38,928 bases of DNA from positions 1 through 38,928 of IMG/VR virus record IMGVR_UViG_3300044707_000508; one strand, given 5' to 3'. Source of the stretch: a virus. The position numbers were made by a program, and so were the translations under genes. The notes below the pieces were generated by a model. The model did not search any database and had not been told where the DNA came from. It saw only the letters and a program-made list of their open reading frames with translations. This document shows, piece after piece, positions 3,868 through 21,020 of the stretch (the stretch's first letter is position 1; each line of letters starts with the position of its first letter).

Positions 3868-4079
3868 TTGCTAAACGAGTCAGCGAGAGCGCGTTCTTTG
3901 GCTCCGAATGGGCGAGAGAAATAAATAAAATACACGCCCTTGGCCCAATCGACCCCGCCGTTAAATTCCCAGCCTGACTTCCCGAGGGAGAGTCCACCAC
4001 CGGGAACCACAGGCGAAGTGGCGCAGCCGCTAATCAAAGCAGCGCAGGCAAATGCTAGGGCCGTTAGGGCCGCGCGCAT
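3864..4079 (-). CDS. Small lipoprotein (possible outer-membrane spanin-like)
   Basis: From the ATG at 4079 the 71-residue product starts with a clear type II signal peptide: a basic N-terminus, a hydrophobic run and the lipobox ISGC with the lipidated Cys at residue 19. The mature part is Gly-rich, then aromatic (GVYFIYFSRPF). It lies between the holin-like gene and the endolysin, where lambda-type phages place the outer-membrane spanin Rz1. It lacks Rz1's proline richness and no inner-membrane partner is evident, so spanin function is only a suggestion. An upstream in-frame TTG would lengthen it, but only by running into the holin gene. Confidence 0.7.
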   Translation of the reverse strand: MRAALTALAFACAALISGCATSPVVPGGGLSLGKSGWEFNGGVDWAKGVYFIYFSRPFGAKERALADSFSK

Positions 4080-4709: not shown

Positions 4710-5346
4710 AAACTCGCGGGTGGTTGGCGACTGTCGCCGTGTTGTTGTTGGTGACGGTCAAGCCGCCGCGCACATCTTGGAGGTCGCGAACGAGCGGGGC
4801 GTAGAAGACAAGCGACTGCGGGCGCACCTTGTCGCAGGTCATGCCTTTGGCGAGGGAGGCGACTTCTGCGGCGGTCAAGGCTGCCGACCAGACGCCGCAC
4901 TCTGCGATTAAGCCGTTTGCGTAATTGGTTAAAATGCCAAACCAAGCAGCTCCAATTAACACTCTTGTTAAATCGGCGGGTGTAGCTGAACCTGTGTTCG
5001 TTCCGCTATTGCCGCCGTTGCAATAGGCAATGCGACTTGTTGATGATTCAAAAACGGCGCAGGCATGGCCCCATGTGTTGTTTGTCAGTCCGCCTGTTGA
5101 TATTGCCACCTGTGCAGCGCCACCTGTTTGTTGTGCGTTTGCGCGAATAGTGTTGTTTGTGACATTGTGAATTAGAGTAAATCCACTTGGAGCTGCTGCT
5201 GCATTGCCTATTTGAATAAGCGAAGAGGAAGCATCCGACACGTTGGTTTTATAGACCCAGCACGCAAGCGTCAGCGGAGCAGATGCCACAGGTGCGCTTC
5301 CAACACTTAAATACTGACTGCTCGCCGCTGTAAAATCGTAAGCCAT
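4702..5346 (-). CDS. LamG / concanavalin A-like receptor-binding protein
   Basis: The 214-residue protein has the repeated beta-strand pattern of LamG-type lectin folds: FTAASSQYLSVG, PLTLACWVY, NTWGHACAVFES and GLIAECGVWSAALTAAEVASLAKG are typical of this family in phage tail and surface proteins. The ending EVASLAKGMTCDKVRPQSLVF is a common terminal strand region of such domains. It lies just after the main fibre gene (2-nt gap) and probably contributes to host recognition. Confidence 0.75.
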   Translation of the reverse strand: MAYDFTAASSQYLSVGSAPVASAPLTLACWVYKTNVSDASSSLIQIGNAAAAPSGFTLIHNVTNNTIRANAQQTGGAAQVAISTGGLTNNTWGHACAVFESSTSRIAYCNGGNSGTNTGSATPADLTRVLIGAAWFGILTNYANGLIAECGVWSAALTAAEVASLAKGMTCDKVRPQSLVFYAPLVRDLQDVRGGLTVTNNNTATVANHPRVYA

Positions 5347-5348
5347 AA

Positions 5349-7439
5349 CTAAGCCGCGCTCCTTACTTCGACAGCGACCAACTCTGCATCGCCTGTCATA
5401 GTGTCGTTGGTCACATCGTCCGCATTGCGGAAGACCTTTAAGCGGAACCTGTCGCCAGCCGCCAGCGAGTCGATGGTCGTGATGGTAATCTCGGTCACTG
5501 TCTCGATGCCGCTTGTGCCGTTGGCTGCGCTGTGCGCTTCGGTCCCCGCGCCGTCAAATGAGTCCGAGTCGAGGTCTGTGCCAGATTTCTCAAACTGAAC
5601 GCCCCATCGGCAGTTGCCGCTCGTTGCGGTGCTTGCCATCCAGTGAAGGAAAACTTTGAGGCCGCTGCCGAGCGATGCACCTTCGGGGATGACGCCGACA
5701 AAGACTGCGCTTTCGTCCGTGGCGGCATCGAAGTCCAAGACGGCGATGCTGTTGCGTGTGTCTAGGGTGGCGAAGGCGGTGGCAGGCGGTTGGTTGTGTT
5801 CGGCGGTGAAGACGGCGTAGGTCTTGGTGCCGCCAGACCCTCCGCCCGCCGCCGCTGCCCACTTCACTCCCAAGGTTTCCGCCGAATCGACTGTAAGCAC
5901 ATGGCCGTTCGTGCCGCCCACGGGGAGCCGCGCCGCCGTATCCGCCGCCGAGGCCACGATGAGGTCGCCTTTGGCGTCGAGGAGGGTTGCAGGGATGCCC
6001 GCGCTGACGGTCGAAGACAACTCCCCCGCCGAAAGGCTCAAGCCCGATCCGATTGTGATCTCCTCGACGGCACCTGTGCTGGCGGTTGTCCTTCCGAGGA
6101 TGCGGGCGGTGGCTTGGGTTAAGCCGCTTGAGGTGATGGAGCCGCTGGCGGCGAAGGCTGTGGTATCTTCTACGGCTGCGGTGCCGAGGGTGGGCAGATC
6201 GTCTAAATCGTCGTAGCTGTTGCTGGTGGCTACGGTTGCCAGTTGAGAGTCAAGGACAATAGTGCCGTCTGCGTCTGGGAAGGCAACTGACCTTGCTTCA
6301 GTTAGCTGCGATATATCCAAAGAGGGTCTTCCGCTGTCTTCATTTTCAAGCACGGCCACAATGCCGCCCGTTGCTGGAAAATTGTATGTAGCCCCCAATC
6401 CGCCGTTTTGTAGATATTGTGCAAACAGGTTTGTGTCGTTTGCTCCGAGCGTCATGCCAAATGCAGAAGAACCAACTTCGGCGTCGGGATTGTAGGCTTT
6501 TCCAACGTAACTTAAAATGCCAATCAGTGGATCACCCGCCGTGGTGACACCGACAAAACGACCCGCTGGCGAATCACCGCCAAGGCCAAGTTTGAATTGA
6601 TTAAGGCCCGTGGGACTTTCTAAGGTTGTCGGGATCGGCAGAGAATCACCGCCGCCCGCAACCCCGCCCGAAAGGGTTATGGAAGTTCCGTTGTTTGGAA
6701 CTTGTCCGCCATCACCGCCGCCTAATGTGGCTTGATTTGACGGGTTGGCTGCGTTCCACGCGGCCAACACGGTATCCACATCGTTCACACCATCGAAAGA
6801 CAGCGTGATGCTGTTGCCTGCGGTGCCTGCATTGTTGGCGCGGATGAAGATACTTGTGGACATCCCTGCGACTTGGCCTGTGAAACTGGCCTTGACGCCC
6901 GCCGCATGGCTGGCCGCATGAGCCAGCGTTGAACTCGGCGTCCTCGCATCCGAAAGCCGCACATCATCCCCAGCGCAAAAGCTCCCTGCCGTGTTTGAAA
7001 AAGAACCCGCCTCGACTACGCCGTTGGTGCCTGTTTTTAAGGGGAGGTTGGCGGTGGTGCCGACAGCGCCCGAATTAGTGATGTTTCCGTGGGTGTGGGC
7101 AGTCGGCGTCCTTGCATCACTGAGGCGTGCGTCATTCCCTTGGCAAGCCGTGCCTTCTGTCGTGCCGTAGGAAACATTTGCGGTAATCGTGCCGCTTGTT
7201 GTGACGGGCGAGCCGCTGATGGAAAGCCCGGTTCCAGCCAGAGCAACGCTTGTCACCGAGCCGCTGCCCGCTCCTGCCGCTGCCCATTCGGTGTCGTAGT
7301 CCGTTCCGCTGGCCTTGCGAAGCACTTGCAACGCGCTGCCGCCTGTCGGCACGCCAACACCGGGGGTTCCCTGCGGGCCTGCGGACTCGACCTCAACGGT
7401 GTTCGTCGCAGTCGTTAAAACTTCAATCACATCGCCCAT
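5349..7439 (-). CDS. Tail fibre protein
   Basis: This 696-residue protein has the modular look of a trimeric phage fibre. A short collagen-like piece (GPQGTPG, 21-27) is followed by two copies of a (N/D)D-x-RLSDARTP motif (about 102-112 and 158-168), long Gly/Ser/Thr-rich beta segments, a block resembling the common fibre repeat KGDLIVASAADTAARLPVGG, and a C-terminal beta domain of about 155 residues after a Gly/Ser hinge (AAAGGGSGGTKTY) that could be the tip. It is the largest protein of the adhesin block and likely binds the host surface. It follows the preceding gene with a 1-nt gap. Confidence 0.85.
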   Translation of the reverse strand: MGDVIEVLTTATNTVEVESAGPQGTPGVGVPTGGSALQVLRKASGTDYDTEWAAAGAGSGSVTSVALAGTGLSISGSPVTTSGTITANVSYGTTEGTACQGNDARLSDARTPTAHTHGNITNSGAVGTTANLPLKTGTNGVVEAGSFSNTAGSFCAGDDVRLSDARTPSSTLAHAASHAAGVKASFTGQVAGMSTSIFIRANNAGTAGNSITLSFDGVNDVDTVLAAWNAANPSNQATLGGGDGGQVPNNGTSITLSGGVAGGGDSLPIPTTLESPTGLNQFKLGLGGDSPAGRFVGVTTAGDPLIGILSYVGKAYNPDAEVGSSAFGMTLGANDTNLFAQYLQNGGLGATYNFPATGGIVAVLENEDSGRPSLDISQLTEARSVAFPDADGTIVLDSQLATVATSNSYDDLDDLPTLGTAAVEDTTAFAASGSITSSGLTQATARILGRTTASTGAVEEITIGSGLSLSAGELSSTVSAGIPATLLDAKGDLIVASAADTAARLPVGGTNGHVLTVDSAETLGVKWAAAAGGGSGGTKTYAVFTAEHNQPPATAFATLDTRNSIAVLDFDAATDESAVFVGVIPEGASLGSGLKVFLHWMASTATSGNCRWGVQFEKSGTDLDSDSFDGAGTEAHSAANGTSGIETVTEITITTIDSLAAGDRFRLKVFRNADDVTNDTMTGDAELVAVEVRSAA

Positions 7440-11581: not shown

Positions 11582-13978
11582 TTAGCTCAAGGCGTTTTGC
11601 GGAAGTTTCTCATTGATGCTTTTCAAGAATCCTTCGCATCGCACAAGTGTGGCATCCAAGGCCAACGCCTTGCCCATGCCGCTAACAGCATCTTTAAGCG
11701 CGCTTGCTGCCGTGGAAATAGATTCCCCCGCCGCATCGCCGCCGCTTGTCATGCTGTCTTCTGCGGAACTGCCGCCAGCGGTAACGTCATCGCCAGCGCC
11801 AGAACCTCCGTCACCGAGTAGTTTGCCCGCATCTTCCGCGCCCTTCTTTAGCTCGGGACTAATTTCTTCAAGCGTCTTGGTCAGTTTTGCATCGGCCCGC
11901 ATACGTAAGTTGTGCGCTGACTTTTGCTGCCCCATACTTTCCATTTCTGCCGCTCGCCTCAAGGCTCTGTCGTGAGAATTTTGTGCAACAGAGGCTTTGG
12001 TTTCCATGCTGCGAAGTCGTGTATCGGCCTCGTTTTGTTGTGCCATGTGTGCCGCTGCCGCTTTGCTCGCATCAAGGATACTCATGCCGCCGTCCCGGTA
12101 TTTTTGATAAGCCTCTTCAGCCGAAGTGCGGCCGAAATGAAACGCCTCACGCATCTTGTCGAGCATCCCGCTGGTATTATTGACCGCTGTGCTCATGCGG
12201 TCTGACAGACCAGTGAAGACGTTGGCGGTTACCTCGGCATCAATCTTCGCTTGATTGATCGCACCAGCAAAAGCCTGCGCGTTACCGGGAAGCGTGCTGC
12301 CATGAATCGACACTTGTTCGCTCGCCTTTTCCCCTTCCTTTAGCCATTGAGATGATTGCTCGGCGTAGGTAGATGTTGACTCAAGGTTGAGCGGGATTTG
12401 GGCGCTGCTTTCTGAGGCTAAATCAAACGCTGGCGCAATGCCCGCGGCGGCGTTGCTAGCGTCAGTTAAGTTTAGCGCGATCTGAGAACTTAGCGGCCCG
12501 CCCGACTCAAGAGCGGCGTTTGCTATTCCGAGTGATGCTGCGTATCCTGCGCCTGCGGAGTTGATGGCTTCCGTGCTGGTTTTTTGCAGGGCGAGCTTTT
12601 CTTCAATGGAAGCATGGAGTTGTTGCTGTTCTTGCAGCACCGGGGTCAGATCAAATATGGGCTGAAGAGACGCCTTATTCTTCTCAAAGTTTTCGGGCAT
12701 AGCTCGGCCAGCGGCACCCAAGTCTTCGCCAATCTGTTTTGCCGCGCTGCTCATGTAATAAGTCATTGCGGTTGCCTCCAATGAAGCTGCTTGACTAATC
12801 TTTACAAGATTATCAATGACGCTCTGGCTGATAAAAGGAAGCCCAGCTAACATGGTTGCAAAAGCGTCTGCCATACGAGATTCAAATGTGAGACCGATAA
12901 AATCAATAGTGCGCGCTGCCAATGTAGCAAATCCGCCGTCTGGCGAAAATATAGTCGCTAGAAATTGTCCAAGCGTCATTAAACCAGCCATGAAATTGCT
13001 GACAATTTCATTAATTGCGTTGAGCGCGGTCACCTTCATGGTGACCCACATGAGCGAAAGACCTTCGCCAAAATTCCCGCTAGTGATTGCTTCAATCGCA
13101 AGTTTTACGTTTTCAATGGCCGATCCGAGCTTGAACGCTTCAGAGGCGGCGCGAATCATCTTGTCGAAGTAATCGGCCAACATCATGCCAAAGCCCGCCG
13201 CATCAATCTCCGCAATCTTAGTGGTGATTTCAGCAAGACCGGGAGCCAGCTTGGTGAGCAATCCCGTAGCGAACTCGGTTGATTTATTGGAAATCGCCGT
13301 AAAGTTGTCGCCTATTGTGTCTAGGGCTTCGCGCGTTGCGTCAATGGCCGCAGGGTAGCTGCCAAGCTGCCTCCTAGCCGTCTCAAGCTCGACGCCCATT
13401 GCGCGCAAAAGCGGAATTAGTTCGCCGCCGCTTTTACCAAATAGGTCGATCGCGGCCTGCGTTCTCTTTGTGGGGTCTTCAATGCCAGCAACCAACTGCG
13501 CCAGCATCTTCATCTGCTCAAGGGGCGACTTCTGACCAAGTGTTTCTGCGGATACCCCTAGCTCGGCAAGCGTTTTGGCCTGCGTTGAGCTTTCCACGCC
13601 TGCCTCGGCAATGAACCTTTGCAGCCTGTTAATCATCGGCCCGACCGCGCTGGCGCTTGAGCCTGCGTTTTCAAAGGCGCGTTGCAGAATAGCAAGGTTC
13701 CCCGCCGACTCTCCAGTGCGGGCCGCAAGGTCGCTCAATTCGCCGCCCATGCGGATCGCCTCGGTAAATGCTGCCGCCATGTTTTTTGCTCCCAAGAAGG
13801 CGGCAGCTACGCCCGCAATCGGGATGGCAAACTTGGCAAATTCGCCCGCGAGGGCAGCAACCCTGCCGCTAAATCCTTCAGTCTGACCTTGAAAACCGGA
13901 CAAGCGACTCTGCAAGTTATCTACTGTTTTGGCGAAGGACTCGTCCTTTGCGGCAAATACTGTTGTTACGTCGGCCAT
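11582..13978 (-). CDS. Tail tape measure protein
   Basis: The 798-residue protein is long, helical and low in Cys and aromatics, with an Ala-rich hydrophobic region at about 50-75 (FAKFAIPIAGVAAAFLGAKN), further hydrophobic stretches near 330-400 and a low-complexity Gly/Ser/Asp linker (GDGGSGAGDDVTAGGSS) near 720-745. A motif region GELSDLAARTGESAGNLAILQRAFENAG is typical of tape measure proteins. It lies downstream of the frameshifted tail chaperone with one gene between. At about 1.5 angstrom per residue it would set a tail of roughly 120 nm. Confidence 0.88.
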   Translation of the reverse strand: MADVTTVFAAKDESFAKTVDNLQSRLSGFQGQTEGFSGRVAALAGEFAKFAIPIAGVAAAFLGAKNMAAAFTEAIRMGGELSDLAARTGESAGNLAILQRAFENAGSSASAVGPMINRLQRFIAEAGVESSTQAKTLAELGVSAETLGQKSPLEQMKMLAQLVAGIEDPTKRTQAAIDLFGKSGGELIPLLRAMGVELETARRQLGSYPAAIDATREALDTIGDNFTAISNKSTEFATGLLTKLAPGLAEITTKIAEIDAAGFGMMLADYFDKMIRAASEAFKLGSAIENVKLAIEAITSGNFGEGLSLMWVTMKVTALNAINEIVSNFMAGLMTLGQFLATIFSPDGGFATLAARTIDFIGLTFESRMADAFATMLAGLPFISQSVIDNLVKISQAASLEATAMTYYMSSAAKQIGEDLGAAGRAMPENFEKNKASLQPIFDLTPVLQEQQQLHASIEEKLALQKTSTEAINSAGAGYAASLGIANAALESGGPLSSQIALNLTDASNAAAGIAPAFDLASESSAQIPLNLESTSTYAEQSSQWLKEGEKASEQVSIHGSTLPGNAQAFAGAINQAKIDAEVTANVFTGLSDRMSTAVNNTSGMLDKMREAFHFGRTSAEEAYQKYRDGGMSILDASKAAAAHMAQQNEADTRLRSMETKASVAQNSHDRALRRAAEMESMGQQKSAHNLRMRADAKLTKTLEEISPELKKGAEDAGKLLGDGGSGAGDDVTAGGSSAEDSMTSGGDAAGESISTAASALKDAVSGMGKALALDATLVRCEGFLKSINEKLPQNALS

Positions 13979-13988
13979 GTTTTACCTA

Positions 13989-14846
13989 TTAGCCTGTTGC
14001 CAACTTCGCCTGCGCGCGCAGGGTGGTTTTGATTGCGGTGTTCATGTATTTGACGAACTTGTCGCGCGTTAGGTTAAGCGAGGCCGTGGCTTGTGACGCA
14101 GAAAGCAACTCGCTAACCCACGGCATTGAGTTGGTCATCTTGACTCTTGGATTGGCGACATCTTGGCTCATATCGACAATGCTGCCGCTGGCCCTGCCCT
14201 TGTGCCGCGTGACCCACTGCGGGATTCCTCGCGTAGCGGATTGGGCCTGCTTGACCGGGATTGCCTCGGCGCAGACAGCCCAACCAGCCTTTGCCATGCC
14301 CGCGCGCTTCATGCGTTCTTCTTTGAATTTTTGCAACTCGCCATCCGCTCCGATTACCAGTGCGAGCATTTTGCTCTTCTTCGGAACATTAGTGCGGCGT
14401 CCGGTGCGCGCAGCGTGATATAGGCCGCGATCAAAGCTGTCTAGCTGCACTCTTTCAGTCTTGAAAAAACGAGCCAGCCAAGCAATTTGCTCCGAATTAC
14501 CACTGCGACAATATCTCTCAATCTTTGCCTTGAAGGAATCTTTGGACTTACCGCTTCGCCTGCTTTGATCGACCTTTTCCTTTAACGAGTTTTCGTAGCC
14601 GCGCGTTGGCTCATTAGCCGTGTAAAAGACCTTGCTAACGTCATTGAGGATAGATTGTTCGCCAATGCGTTTGCCTTCTTTTGACTTAGACGAGCCTTCT
14701 TCGTCTTTGCCGCTGTAAGGCTGCGTTGTATTTGCCAGACTTACGCAAGCTAACCGAGCGTGCTGCTTGATCGACTCGCTGATCTCTTTGCCGACAATCG
14801 AAGAAAACAAAGCCAAGCGGCCTCGCAGATCGCTCGTATCAGTCAT
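13989..14846 (-). CDS. Tail protein between chaperone and tape measure
   Basis: The chosen start at 14846 (MTDTSDLRGRLALFSS) overlaps the end of the frameshift extension by 8 nt; an ATG 15 nt earlier is possible. The product has 285 residues and is rich in Lys, Arg and Ser, with a helical N-terminus (GKEISESIKQHARLACVSLAN). Its location suggests a minor tail protein. I recognise no catalytic motif. Confidence 0.65.
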   Translation of the reverse strand: MTDTSDLRGRLALFSSIVGKEISESIKQHARLACVSLANTTQPYSGKDEEGSSKSKEGKRIGEQSILNDVSKVFYTANEPTRGYENSLKEKVDQSRRSGKSKDSFKAKIERYCRSGNSEQIAWLARFFKTERVQLDSFDRGLYHAARTGRRTNVPKKSKMLALVIGADGELQKFKEERMKRAGMAKAGWAVCAEAIPVKQAQSATRGIPQWVTRHKGRASGSIVDMSQDVANPRVKMTNSMPWVSELLSASQATASLNLTRDKFVKYMNTAIKTTLRAQAKLATG

Positions 14847-15545
14847 GGCTGTGATCTTCATTGGCGTTGGCGAGGGACTTTCTTATCTGGGCGGCAATGT
14901 CCACCGATCCTCGCCCTTCGTTTATGCTGTGCGCCCACCGCATCTTGCGCCCCGCCTTGATGTCATGCCATAGGATCATCTGCAACCCCATCGCAAGAGG
15001 CAATCGACGCAGGATGTAGTCCGCGCTCCAGCCCGTCACGGAGGCGATGAGCGTCAGATAGGACGCTTGCCATGACGGGCCGATGCTTTTCCCGGTCGAA
15101 CGAGCTTGCTCCCGGTTGGCGCAGCGGCGACTTCGCTTTGCGCGGCAAAGTATTCCGTGACGGATTGTTCGATGATCGGCAAGGCATCGGTCAACATCTT
15201 TGGGTCATTGAGCGGCCCGCGCAGAAAGGCGCGCACGCCTTCGCGGAACTCGTCTCGTCGCCAGATAACCTCGGCTACAATGTCGGGATCGGCGGCGTGG
15301 ATGTAGATAAACTCGCCCGTTGACCAAATCGCGTTGGCATTGGCCGCGCTGACCCGCTCGCCCTTCATTCCTTTGATAAAGAAGTTCTCGACTTCAAAAA
15401 GGTAAGACAGGGTTTCCGCCGTGATCGGGCGCACGGTTAGTTCCCCGAGCTTGCGACCCTTGCTTAATATGGCCTTACTCAATATTTCGGGTCGGGACTC
15501 TTGCAGGATTTCTTCGTCGGTGGCGATTGCTTCGATGTGGCTCAT
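14839..15545 (-). CDS. Frameshifted tail assembly chaperone (G-T type fusion)
   Basis: This is a 235-residue product predicted by -1 slippage. Translation follows the 163-residue chaperone frame from 15545 to Lys153 (codon 15089-15087), slips back one base on GGGAAAA (15093-15087), and continues AGC ATC GGC to the stop at 14841-14839. The added 82 residues (SIGPSWQASYLTLIASVTGW then SADYILRR) are well-formed protein sequence with no ATG of their own at their true beginning. Lambda and many siphoviruses make such G and G-T proteins before the tape measure gene. The extension binds the tape measure protein in lambda. Confidence 0.85.
15031..15093 (-). promoter_or_regulatory. Programmed -1 ribosomal frameshift signal
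   Basis: The slippery heptamer G GGA AAA lies at 15093-15087 in the correct phase of the chaperone gene. A 6-nt spacer (15086-15081) leads to a stem of GCCCGTCA (15080-15073) with TGACGGGC (15038-15031). Inside its loop is a second perfect stem, AGCGTC (15067-15062) with GACGCT (15055-15050). Slippery site, spacer length and downstream structure are all canonical. The zero-frame stop (15056-15054) lies within the structure. Confidence 0.9.
15054..15545 (-). CDS. Tail assembly chaperone, zero-frame product (G-like)
   Basis: The 163-residue protein (MSHIEAIATDEEILQESRPE) is acidic and mostly helical, with a segment RKLGELTVRPITAETLSYLFEVEN that resembles tail assembly chaperones of siphoviruses. 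It starts by an ATGA overlap with the preceding gene. A slippery site ten residues before the stop allows a longer form. It should coat the tape measure protein before tail tube polymerisation. Confidence 0.8.
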   Translation of the reverse strand: MSHIEAIATDEEILQESRPEILSKAILSKGRKLGELTVRPITAETLSYLFEVENFFIKGMKGERVSAANANAIWSTGEFIYIHAADPDIVAEVIWRRDEFREGVRAFLRGPLNDPKMLTDALPIIEQSVTEYFAAQSEVAAAPTGSKLVRPGKASARHGKRPI

Positions 15546-17239: not shown

Positions 17240-18157
17240 CTACACTGTCAAGGCTTTGCGGGCGGCTTCTAAAAGACGGGCAAATCCGACTTCGGCGCAG
17301 AACTCCCGGTGCGCCAAGGCGCAGCCCGCCTCGGCAATGCCGCGCAGCCTGTCGTAGTCAAGGGCGCGGATGAAGTCGCACAATTCGGCTTCGGGCAATC
17401 CTTGCGGAAACGTAACGCGATGCTGGCCGTCCAAGAAAAGCTCGTTGCCTTGGTCAAGCGGCTGGCACTCGACAATCAACGCCCCGCTAGCGGCAGCCTC
17501 GCAGCAACGGATGCTGTGAGCGCGCCCGTGCGCGGGCGGGCAAAGCACGGCGGAAAATTCGCGGAACAACGCGGCGACCCCATTGGCCCCGGCCAAGTTG
17601 CGCGGGGCGCTAAAGGCGCGCAACAAGCCCGCGCGATGCAGGATTTCCACAATGCGGATGCGCTCGGTTTTCCATGCGTTGTTGTGACCGATATAGCACA
17701 GTTCTTTTATGCGATTGTGCTGCGGGACGGCAGGGAACAGGTCGCTGGCAAACATGATCGGGGCAAAGTCGGCCTTCATGCCCAAGGAACGAAACCACGC
17801 GACATCGCTCATTTGCGCGGCGGCGTAGTAGTGCAGCCAGTTGTGTTCTGCGTGGAACTCCCGCCCGCCGGGGAAAACGTCATTGCCCGCAATCCATTCG
17901 GAAACATAGCCAAGCAGGGGTTTGCCCAGCGCCAGCAAGTCGGCATGATGGCGGCGAATAAAGTCCGCGTGCATATGCGGTGAAAGGAAGACCACGCAAT
18001 CGGCGCTGCTTTGCCGAAGGATTTGCAGCACCCCGGCATGATCGTAGGGCATGGCAATAGCCGCGTTGCACATTCCATGCCGAAAAAGTTGCTGGCACAA
18101 ACCGGAACCAAAGCTCACGGGCTCGTCGTGCCAGAAAACAATGTCAGCCACTTTCAT
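17240..18157 (-). CDS. Glycosyltransferase (GT-B type, group 1-like)
   Basis: The 305-residue protein resembles glycosyltransferases of the Glyco_trans_1_2 type. It has an N-terminal Rossmann-like half (MKVADIVFWHDEPVSFGSGL) and a C-terminal half with HSIRCCEAAASGALIVECQP, the typical sugar-nucleotide binding segment with the E-x-x-A-x-G-x core. It would transfer a sugar from a nucleotide donor to an unknown acceptor. It is the last of four ATGA-coupled cassette genes and is followed directly by the connector gene. Confidence 0.85.
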   Translation of the reverse strand: MKVADIVFWHDEPVSFGSGLCQQLFRHGMCNAAIAMPYDHAGVLQILRQSSADCVVFLSPHMHADFIRRHHADLLALGKPLLGYVSEWIAGNDVFPGGREFHAEHNWLHYYAAAQMSDVAWFRSLGMKADFAPIMFASDLFPAVPQHNRIKELCYIGHNNAWKTERIRIVEILHRAGLLRAFSAPRNLAGANGVAALFREFSAVLCPPAHGRAHSIRCCEAAASGALIVECQPLDQGNELFLDGQHRVTFPQGLPEAELCDFIRALDYDRLRGIAEAGCALAHREFCAEVGFARLLEAARKALTV

Positions 18158-18729
18158 TTCTGAAGGGTGGTCTTGCTGCTGTCGAAGTTGTAGCGGTGCA
18201 GGATTTGCGGAATGTGCGCTTCCGTCTCAGCCTCGGCCCACAAGTGACGCAGCCAGAGGATGTCTTCATTCCTCCGCACTTGCGGGACTGCATAAGCACA
18301 AGCCAACTCGCGCCGCCACGCGCACCAAAACCACGGCGGGCGCTTGGTCACGCCTCCGGGGCGGAATGGTTCGACCTCATGACCCAGCCTTGCGTTGATC
18401 CTGCCCTCCACGCCATCGACTGTTGCCCATTGGTCATACGTAATTACGTCTTTGTCGTGGCGGATGTTGTCCAAGACCAATTCAAAGTAGCCTTCGCACA
18501 AGGCGTCATCGTCATCCAGAAACGTGATGTATTTGCCTCTCGATGCGCGTAGGAGCTTGTTCCGCGCCTCCCCGATACCGCTCAAGCAGTTGTCGCGCAT
18601 CATTATGATCTCGACGTTGCGGCCCTTAACCCGCGCTTCCAGCGACCGGAATAAGGCATTGGCCCCCTGCTCCCGCTCGGTGATGGTCGGGATGAGGACG
18701 GACAGATCGGGTGTCGGTGCGCGCTTCAT
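18154..18729 (-). CDS. Family 2 glycosyltransferase
   Basis: This 191-residue GT-A protein has the opening SVLIPTITERE typical of family 2 enzymes, the donor-binding stretch GIGEARNKLLRASRGKYITF followed by the metal-binding DDDD, and a later W-x-W segment. It is coupled by ATGA overlaps on both sides. It is shorter than most full-length family 2 proteins but the whole catalytic core appears present. The acceptor is unknown. Confidence 0.88.
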   Translation of the reverse strand: MKRAPTPDLSVLIPTITEREQGANALFRSLEARVKGRNVEIIMMRDNCLSGIGEARNKLLRASRGKYITFLDDDDALCEGYFELVLDNIRHDKDVITYDQWATVDGVEGRINARLGHEVEPFRPGGVTKRPPWFWCAWRRELACAYAVPQVRRNEDILWLRHLWAEAETEAHIPQILHRYNFDSSKTTLQK

Positions 18730-19325
18730 CGTAGGAAAATCACGTTTTCGGCGTTCATCGCGGCGACCCGGAAGGAGGCGGGCATTGCAATCTCTTGCGC
18801 GCCGTCATGCTCCAGAACCACGGCCTTGACTCCGAAGCGGTCAAAGTCGAATGCGCTGGCGATTTGCGCGCTGGTTCCTTCGGTGTCGATGCTCACAAGG
18901 TCGATTTGCGGGGGCAGCATCCACATGAGTTCGGTCATGCTGATCGTCGCGGCGGTCATGGCAATGTGCTTGCCGCTCACGCGCCCCGCCCATTTGTCAC
19001 GATGCCATGTCTCTGTCGTGCTAATCGCCCCGTCATTCTCTGCATCCTTGGGCATGAGCCATGCCGATGCAGGCGGCTGCGCGCCAATCGTCACGGCCCC
19101 GGCAACAATACGGATGCGCTCGTTGTCTTTGTAGGCTTCCAGCAAATCGACCAGCCCGTAAGGCGACATTTCGACCATAACCCCAGACCAGCCGCGCTCA
19201 ATTAGCGCGCGGGTGTTGCTGTGCTTGGTCGGATGAAACGCGCCGATCTCCAAAAACGCGCCGTCTGCCTTGTCGCCAAAATAGTCGAGCAAGACCGCCT
19301 CTTCGTTGTTCTGCGAATAGCTCAT
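18726..19325 (-). CDS. FkbM-family methyltransferase
   Basis: The 199-residue protein starts SQNNEEAVLLDYFGDKADGAFLEIGAF, where the early SQ-x-EE and the glycine-bearing LEIGA form the SAM-binding start of FkbM-type methyltransferases. Later blocks VMVEMSP, IDLVSIDTEGTS and VKAVVLEHDG agree with the family. It probably methylates a sugar hydroxyl, which fits its place between glycosyltransferase genes. It is coupled to both neighbours by ATGA overlaps. Confidence 0.88.
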   Translation of the reverse strand: MSYSQNNEEAVLLDYFGDKADGAFLEIGAFHPTKHSNTRALIERGWSGVMVEMSPYGLVDLLEAYKDNERIRIVAGAVTIGAQPPASAWLMPKDAENDGAISTTETWHRDKWAGRVSGKHIAMTAATISMTELMWMLPPQIDLVSIDTEGTSAQIASAFDFDRFGVKAVVLEHDGAQEIAMPASFRVAAMNAENVIFLR

Positions 19326-20998
19326 GGGTGGCGGGCTTGAAAGATTGCCTTTGCTCTTTCGTATTCGGCGGGGTCATTGCCGCGCTCATAAGTTGCGTCC
19401 ATCTTAACGCCCGCGTTAAAAAACGGATGGTGGTGGCGGATGACGATTTGCGGGGCTTCAATGATGGCCCCGGCCTTAGTCGCGGTCGCGGTCAGATCGT
19501 TGTCGGAATACACGTTGCGGTATTCCTCGTGGAACAATCCATGCTGCTCATACCAGCGGCGGGTGACGATGGCGCAAGTGATTAGCCCGTCCGCGCGATT
19601 GCCGTCCGAGACGCGCAGCACTTTGGGCGCGAAAATGTCGCCGCCTAACGCATCAACAATGAGGCGATCCCATCCTGCGGGCGGCTCAAAGTCATCGGCA
19701 AGCTGCACTAGGATATCGCCCGAAGAACTATCGGCAGCGGCATTCCAAGCCCCGACCGAGCAACTGCTGTGAGAGATTACGCCCCGAAAGCGCGCCAGCT
19801 TTTCGTTGGATTCCTCGTCATCCTCGTCAATGGCGAAGATGTGCTCGACCGCCATCGGGTTTTCAGCGCGAGACATCCACAAATTCATTGCCTGTATTGC
19901 CTGCGCCCAGCGCCCTCGCGTGGCGTGCAACAGAGAAATGCGGGGCTTGCCGCCTTCCTCCAACATCTTCTCTTCGATCTTCGCGGCTTCGTCCTCGTTG
20001 CCCGCCAGCCTGTGCGCCCATGCAAGTGTTGCGTAGCCCTTCCAGTTGTAGCAATCGGGGCGGTGCGTCCACTCCGGTATCTTGGGCAGCGGTATGGTCA
20101 GCGTATGCTCGGCGGTCTTTAGTGCGTCCTCCGTCTGCCCTGCGTCCATTTGCAGCAAGGCGAGGATGTTGTGCGCCTCTCGGCGTTGCGGGTTGAGCTT
20201 GATCGCTCGCTGGCAGAGGTCTTGCCCGTGGGCGTTCTCCCCGGCGAGCAGGGCGAGGTTGAGCATGACCTCGTAGCGATACACGCCGTCCAAGTCCTGC
20301 ATCCGCAGGGCTTCCAAGCCGTAGCGCACGGCCTCGTCGCGCTTACCGAGGAGGTAGTATTCATAGTGCAAATAAAACGCTAGGTGCTGCGCCTCTTGGT
20401 AGCGCCAGCGCAGGATGTTGATGTTGCGTTCCTGCGATCCGGTTTTCTCGCCTAGCGGCTCATGGATGACCCGGATGTTGCGATTGACCCGCACCTTGAG
20501 GGAGTCCTTGTCCTTGTCGTTGCTGACCGGGACGCACTTTTCATGCACCCCGTGGAACCATGCGGCGGTTCCGGTGCGGAATAACCTCTCGCGCCAAACG
20601 GCCTTACCGTGATTAGGCAGGACATACTCGGCCAGAATCCAATCCTCGGCGGTTTCCTCGCAGGCTTTACGGATCGTCTCGCCCATGCCTGCGGGCAGCG
20701 TATCGTCGCAGTCCATCCACATCAGCCACTTGGCCCCGGTATCCGCGCCAAGGCGGAAGGCTTGGTTGCGGGCGGCGGCGAAATCGTCCACGAAGGGCCA
20801 CGCTGCGGTGGCGGGGCTGTTGTGGTATTCCCCGACAATGCAACCACGCTGGCGGGCAACGTCGAGCGTGGAATCGGGGGTCTGGCCCCCTACGGCGCGG
20901 ACAACAACAACGGTATCGGTTACGGAGAAGGCAGAGTCGAGGGCGCGATCAATTAGCCCCGCCTCGTTGCCTGCAATCAAGCAGACGGCAATTTTCAT
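19322..20998 (-). CDS. Two-domain glycosyltransferase with TPR-like linker
   Basis: From the ATG at 20998 the product has 558 residues. The N-terminal GT-A domain (MKIAVCLIAGNEAGLIDRAL; metal site MDCDD near 100) resembles family 2 enzymes. A helical region at about 215-330 has TPR-like periodicity (YGLEALRMQDLDG, AHNILALLQMDAGQTEDALKTAE). A second GT-A-like domain follows (ISLLHATRGRWAQAI; LVQLADDFEP; YSDNDLTATATKAG). It may therefore add two sugars or recognise a protein acceptor through the TPR part. TTGACA lies 15 nt before the start. The gene begins right after the capsid terminator. Confidence 0.87.
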   Translation of the reverse strand: MKIAVCLIAGNEAGLIDRALDSAFSVTDTVVVVRAVGGQTPDSTLDVARQRGCIVGEYHNSPATAAWPFVDDFAAARNQAFRLGADTGAKWLMWMDCDDTLPAGMGETIRKACEETAEDWILAEYVLPNHGKAVWRERLFRTGTAAWFHGVHEKCVPVSNDKDKDSLKVRVNRNIRVIHEPLGEKTGSQERNINILRWRYQEAQHLAFYLHYEYYLLGKRDEAVRYGLEALRMQDLDGVYRYEVMLNLALLAGENAHGQDLCQRAIKLNPQRREAHNILALLQMDAGQTEDALKTAEHTLTIPLPKIPEWTHRPDCYNWKGYATLAWAHRLAGNEDEAAKIEEKMLEEGGKPRISLLHATRGRWAQAIQAMNLWMSRAENPMAVEHIFAIDEDDEESNEKLARFRGVISHSSCSVGAWNAAADSSSGDILVQLADDFEPPAGWDRLIVDALGGDIFAPKVLRVSDGNRADGLITCAIVTRRWYEQHGLFHEEYRNVYSDNDLTATATKAGAIIEAPQIVIRHHHPFFNAGVKMDATYERGNDPAEYERAKAIFQARHP

Positions 20999-21020
20999 CT
21001 GCCCGAGGGCGTCTGTCAAA

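Follow-up and report, generated by a model that had tools for sequence, protein, structure and literature searches.

A conserved, very probable −1 frameshift signal with a nested hairpin in a putative tail assembly chaperone gene of a metagenomic tailed phage

In phage lambda, the proteins gpG and gpGT are related by a −1 frameshift at the sequence G_GGA_AAG (reviewed in PMC5009743, which cites Xu, Hendrix and Duda 2004 and Levin et al. 1993). The two proteins act at a molar ratio (gpG:gpGT) of about 30:1, and G binds the tape measure protein while T binds the tail shaft subunit (PMC5009743). For the tail assembly chaperone sites of HK97-like phages, frameshifting of 6-7% was obtained in reporter tests (PMC3711429). 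Outside the phage tail genes, the −1 signals of E. coli dnaX and of bacterial IS elements use hairpins or three-way junctions as stimulators (PMC5009743, PMC3711429).

The DNA considered here, referred to as the window, is the whole 38,928-nt stretch of the virus record IMGVR_UViG_3300044707_000508 (IMG/VR). As genes for terminase, portal and major head protein are present further along the window, it belongs to a tailed phage. On the minus strand, it carries what is very probably a genuine and functional-looking signal for −1 programmed frameshifting, of the classical type known from phage tail chaperones (Table 1). Such a signal had been proposed in a preliminary description of the window, and the slippery heptamer, GGGAAAA, and the 6-nt spacer following it proved to be correct to the base. 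The zero-frame reading at the heptamer is CCG GGA AAA, which is the X_XXY_YYZ phase, and the zero-frame ORF ends with CCG GGA AAA GCA TCG GCC CGT CAT GGC AAG CGT CCT ATC TGA. An outer stem of 8 bp with perfectly complementary arms, enclosing an inner stem of 6 bp that is also perfect, was present where it had been placed, and the zero-frame stop codon lies inside both stems, as had also been claimed. When G-U pairs are counted, the outer stem is up to 14 bp long, and the spacer would be 3 nt rather than 6 nt if the three weak basal pairs form. The 8-bp stem starts 6 nt after the heptamer; in hairpin-stimulated −1 programmed frameshifting of bacteria, the stem starts about 5-9 nt past the heptamer. 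A −1 shift at this site would join 153 zero-frame residues to the 82-residue extension, and the predicted product is 235 aa long (stop codon at 14841-14839), with a junction that reads RPGK followed by SIGPSW.

Table 1. Positions of the signal, of its predicted products and of neighbouring tail genes in the window
Feature	Positions	Strand	Basis or remark
Slippery heptamer G_GGA_AAA (GGGAAAA)	15087..15093	minus	sequence; same in all relatives
Spacer GCATCG, 6 nt	15081..15086	minus	last three bases able to pair weakly, lengthening the stem
Outer stem, 5' arm GCCCGTCA	15073..15080	minus	extendable to 15083-15070
Outer stem, 3' arm TGACGGGC	15031..15038	minus	extendable to 15041-15028
Inner stem, 5' arm AGCGTC	15062..15067	minus	not conserved as such
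Inner stem, 3' arm GACGCT	15050..15055	minus	
Zero-frame stop TGA	15054..15056	minus	within both stems
Zero-frame ORF "G", 163 aa, probable tail assembly chaperone	15054..15545	minus	ORF list; conservation; gene position
−1 extension "T", 82 aa after the shift, plus stop	14839..15087	minus	overlaps start of next gene (14861)
290-aa gene between G/GT and tape measure (g290)	13989..14861	minus	position kept in every relative reaching it
Tape measure protein	11582..13978	minus	PHROG tail length tape measure, best E 5e-13
Tail tube-like gene, 123 aa	16042-16413		upstream of G; sequence inspection and position, no family match
Tail terminator-like gene, 164 aa	16436-16930		upstream of G; sequence inspection and position, no database match

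Relatives were obtained by protein searches as 14 IMG/VR contigs, which were grouped by sequence into about 8 lineages with the window, L025, L026, L027, L030, L031, L033 and L035 as representatives. G is 58-100% identical across the 14 contigs, and the other lineages are 58-73% identical to the window in this protein. The preliminary description had pointed out that silent changes destroying the slippery site in relatives would speak against the signal; GGGAAAA was found intact and in the same phase in 14 of the 14 contigs. The codon before GGGAAAA varies (CCG, GCG or GGG), ending in G in every case, and in this genome GGA and AAA are minority choices for Gly (21%) and Lys (35%), respectively. 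In L035, the most distant relative, the run of A is six long (GGGAAAAAAG), and positions 4001-4010 hold tandem overlapping heptamers in one phase, G_GGA_AAA and A_AAA_AAG. No Shine-Dalgarno-like stimulator is shared in the 25 nt upstream, where the lineages differ. The annotated phage collection, searched at the nucleotide and the protein level, gave nothing usable (the sole tblastn match had E = 5). No prophage relative turned up when genomes of bacteria and archaea were scanned twice, and the G/T family is without representatives in the annotated phage collection searched.

The 70-nt region containing the signal folds with −34.9 kcal/mol (z = −4.0), and none of 200 dinucleotide shuffles was as stable. 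Among the nine in-phase X_XXY_YYZ heptamers (Y = A or T) in the main coding ORFs (24.7 kb), GGGAAAA at this site has by far the most stable downstream fold (−32.2 versus −21.9 for the runner-up). It lies 40 nt from the 3' end of its ORF, and none of the other eight is close to the 3' end of theirs. Hairpin strength alone is not unique, as 75 of 25,912 segments of 62 nt on both strands fold at least as well. With so many equally stable segments, conservation matters more, and hairpin strength was not used as an argument; it is the combination of the elements and their conservation that carries the case. A plus-strand structure at the same place (z −2.0) is a mere mirror of the minus-strand hairpin.

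RNA pairing at the signal is selected beyond coding. The natural sequences were compared with synonymous recodings in which the proteins were kept (both frames in the overlap) and codons were drawn by the codon usage of the window. In every lineage, the real sequence folded better than the average of its recodings (z for the representatives −3.0, −2.0, −3.7, −3.6, −1.1, −2.0, −1.7 and −1.4), only mildly so in L030 (z −1.1), and the Stouffer combined z is about −6.5 when the lineages are taken as independent, which is only approximately true, with synonymous sites largely saturated. When 62-nt segments of the G+T region were ranked by stability, the signal came first or second in seven of the eight lineages and sixth in the other. 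The outer stem occurs at the same place in all 14 related contigs, and in an ungapped 10-row alignment 91% of the cells of the 14-bp stem are paired, compared with 30-49% when it is slid by 1-3 columns. Covariation of the stems, which had been suggested as a check, was found in the form of compensatory changes at two outer-stem pairs, from A-U to U-A in four sequences (columns 21/56) and from C-G to G-C in one (columns 20/57). Six core pairs of the stem never vary and provide no covariation, and the count of pairs with double changes was not above that of shuffles (130/500); on its own, covariation is modest. The codons GGG, AAA, CCG, CAA, ACG and GGC are invariant in the signal, and the Thr-Gly at codons 20-21 of the −1 frame, which lies past the zero-frame stop and contributes to the 3' outer arm, is always encoded by ACG GGC across the lineages, whereas variation is seen at 9 of 10 comparable degenerate codons further downstream (Fisher p 0.009).

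The inner pairings differ by lineage and are differently placed within the same outer stem, the exact 6-bp inner stem being limited to close relatives of the window. Thus, of the double stem originally described, the outer part is conserved and longer than reported, and the inner part is lineage-specific. One might ask if the stimulator represents a distinct modular type, in which a constant outer stem, GCCCGU/ACGGGC, partly fixed by the two overlapping reading frames, encloses inner hairpins that can be exchanged freely, the chaperone family being sequence-unrelated to the known ones. We consider this rather unlikely.

With regard to the product, G/GT is probably a tail assembly chaperone, judging by its position and by the frameshift architecture. 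As expected of a G/GT pair, it lies between the tube-like gene (recognized by inspection) and the tape measure gene, with one extra gene on each side, the one next to the tube-like gene coding for 147 aa (g147). The order tail terminator-like, tube-like, g147, G/GT, g290 and tape measure does not change among the relatives over the length covered by their contigs. G and T gave no meaningful Pfam, PHROG or PDB profile match, and weak matches of T to phrog_11996, a family of unknown function, were obtained for 5 of 7 members (best E 0.0022). As chaperones of this kind are highly divergent, the absent homology does not decide the matter. AlphaFold models of G and T are too weak to settle the role (mean pLDDT 48 and 61); G is predicted to be mainly helical, with low confidence, and T to be a short helical domain. 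The previous naming of the locus as a tail chaperone gene is therefore backed by gene order and frameshift architecture and not by a sequence match to a known chaperone family. It could be argued that the frameshift is real and that the product is some other tail-module protein made in two forms, as there is no match to chaperone families and the 290-aa gene stands between G/GT and the tape measure gene (gene H of lambda, which codes for the tape measure protein, directly follows G/T). However, a position after a tube-like gene and before the tape measure gene, a mainly helical G (at low confidence), a short helical T and the frameshift itself make up the usual chaperone pattern, and we regard a non-chaperone product as improbable.

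Several other observations were made on the surrounding genes. Between the head and tail modules, two minus-strand genes (19322-21019 and 18154-18729) match glycosyltransferases in PHROG, a third glycosyltransferase-like gene on this strand (17240-18157) has a Pfam match just at or below the cut-off, and a fourth (18726-19325, minus) has no assignment; this block (17240-21019) is at an unusual place for probable auxiliary (moron) genes. The third of these genes (305 aa) and the 164-aa tail terminator-like gene are 100% and 99% identical, respectively, to their counterparts in L033/L034, despite an identity of just 59% in G. This mosaicism (L033, L034 and L022) suggests a recent exchange of the block with the glycosyltransferase-like and 164-aa genes. 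Identity also breaks sharply just past the T domain, as in L024, where G is 100%, the 290-aa gene 46% and the tape measure protein 51% identical; in L029, the 290-aa gene is 84% identical versus 66% for G. By these identities, the tape measure gene seems to have been exchanged while the putative chaperone stayed, which bears on how specific the pair is. In L027, about 500 nt of extra DNA (5099-5615) are present between the 290-aa and tape measure genes when compared to the window.

The −1 frame is open for 81-86 codons in the window and in the relatives examined, and the previously proposed extension of 82 residues was confirmed, T being conserved as a protein past the zero-frame stop in the 14 contigs. 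In this part, dN is 0.17-0.42 between lineages and dS is mostly above 1 or saturated: the T frame is under purifying selection. It carries the motifs P-x-W-Q, TGW-x-x-DYI and WHD, the W of the last being substituted in L035. T could in principle be a gene in its own right that is translated after the stop of G, either by re-initiation or by internal initiation, with a heptamer that is incidental, and in the window there is indeed a GTG in the −1 frame at codon 19 (15039-15037). However, this GTG is missing in 6 of the 8 lineages, which have no ATG, GTG or TTG before codon 20 of the −1 frame, and the residues ahead of it (P-x-W-Q-x-x-Y and A17) are invariant. The conservation of upstream parts of T without an in-frame start in these six lineages speaks against independent initiation. 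In addition, the GTG is located inside the stem, and a separate gene would give no reason for the conservation of GGGAAAA, making this explanation very improbable. As in the −1 frameshifted tail chaperone genes (G/GT) of dsDNA phages, the first ORF has an in-phase slippery heptamer close to its end, and the second domain is open in the −1 frame and conserved as a protein with no conserved start of its own.

A fusion could also arise from a fusion mRNA if the RNA polymerase, and not the ribosome, slipped on the A run, and the six A in L035 would suit this. However, the window and the other relatives have four A only, a run too short for efficient polymerase slippage, and the conserved downstream RNA structure fits ribosomal slippage, so that polymerase slippage deserves hardly any credence. 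That the frame was broken by an error of sequencing or assembly, conceivable for a metagenome assembly used here without read data, or by decay of the gene, is already refuted by conservation, as 14 separate contigs have the same break, their synonymous divergence is saturated and both frames are under selection; we give it practically no weight.

If the signal acts as a programmed −1 frameshift site, most ribosomes would read G and terminate at the zero-frame TGA. A minority would pause where the nested hairpin begins, while GGA and AAA (Gly and Lys) occupy the P and A sites, respectively. These ribosomes would move one base back onto GGG AAA, open the hairpin and go on to produce the G-T fusion of 235 aa. 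If gpG and gpGT of lambda are taken as the model, G might coat the tape measure protein and T might bring in subunits of the tail tube, and the rate of slippage would determine the G:GT ratio. The site, its phase, its potential to fold, its conservation, the selection on both the T frame and the RNA pairing, and the gene context are established here; the occurrence and rate of frameshifting as well as the chaperone function are inferred. The 235-aa fusion would be the correct gene model for this locus, which would otherwise be annotated as a single short gene lacking the T domain.

These results have the following implications: a clean, evolutionarily tested frameshift signal is added to a phage group without relatives in the annotated collection; the G and T protein families can be placed as probable tail chaperones; and the understanding of the frameshift mechanism is unchanged. 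The same trick is known from lambda and many other phages. When compared to lambda, the last base of the heptamer is A here and G there, and a strong, conserved nested hairpin follows the heptamer here; to our knowledge, the lambda site is not known for such a downstream structure. Moreover, the proteins have no detectable similarity to those of lambda, and there is one extra gene ahead of the tape measure gene. Unlike the dnaX and IS-element signals, the present one shows no conserved upstream Shine-Dalgarno-like stimulator; like them, it consists of a slippery heptamer and a downstream hairpin, and L035 even has tandem heptamers. The HK97-like chaperone cluster has no detectable sequence similarity to G/T in family searches, but its architecture and presumed pair of products are the same as those found here.
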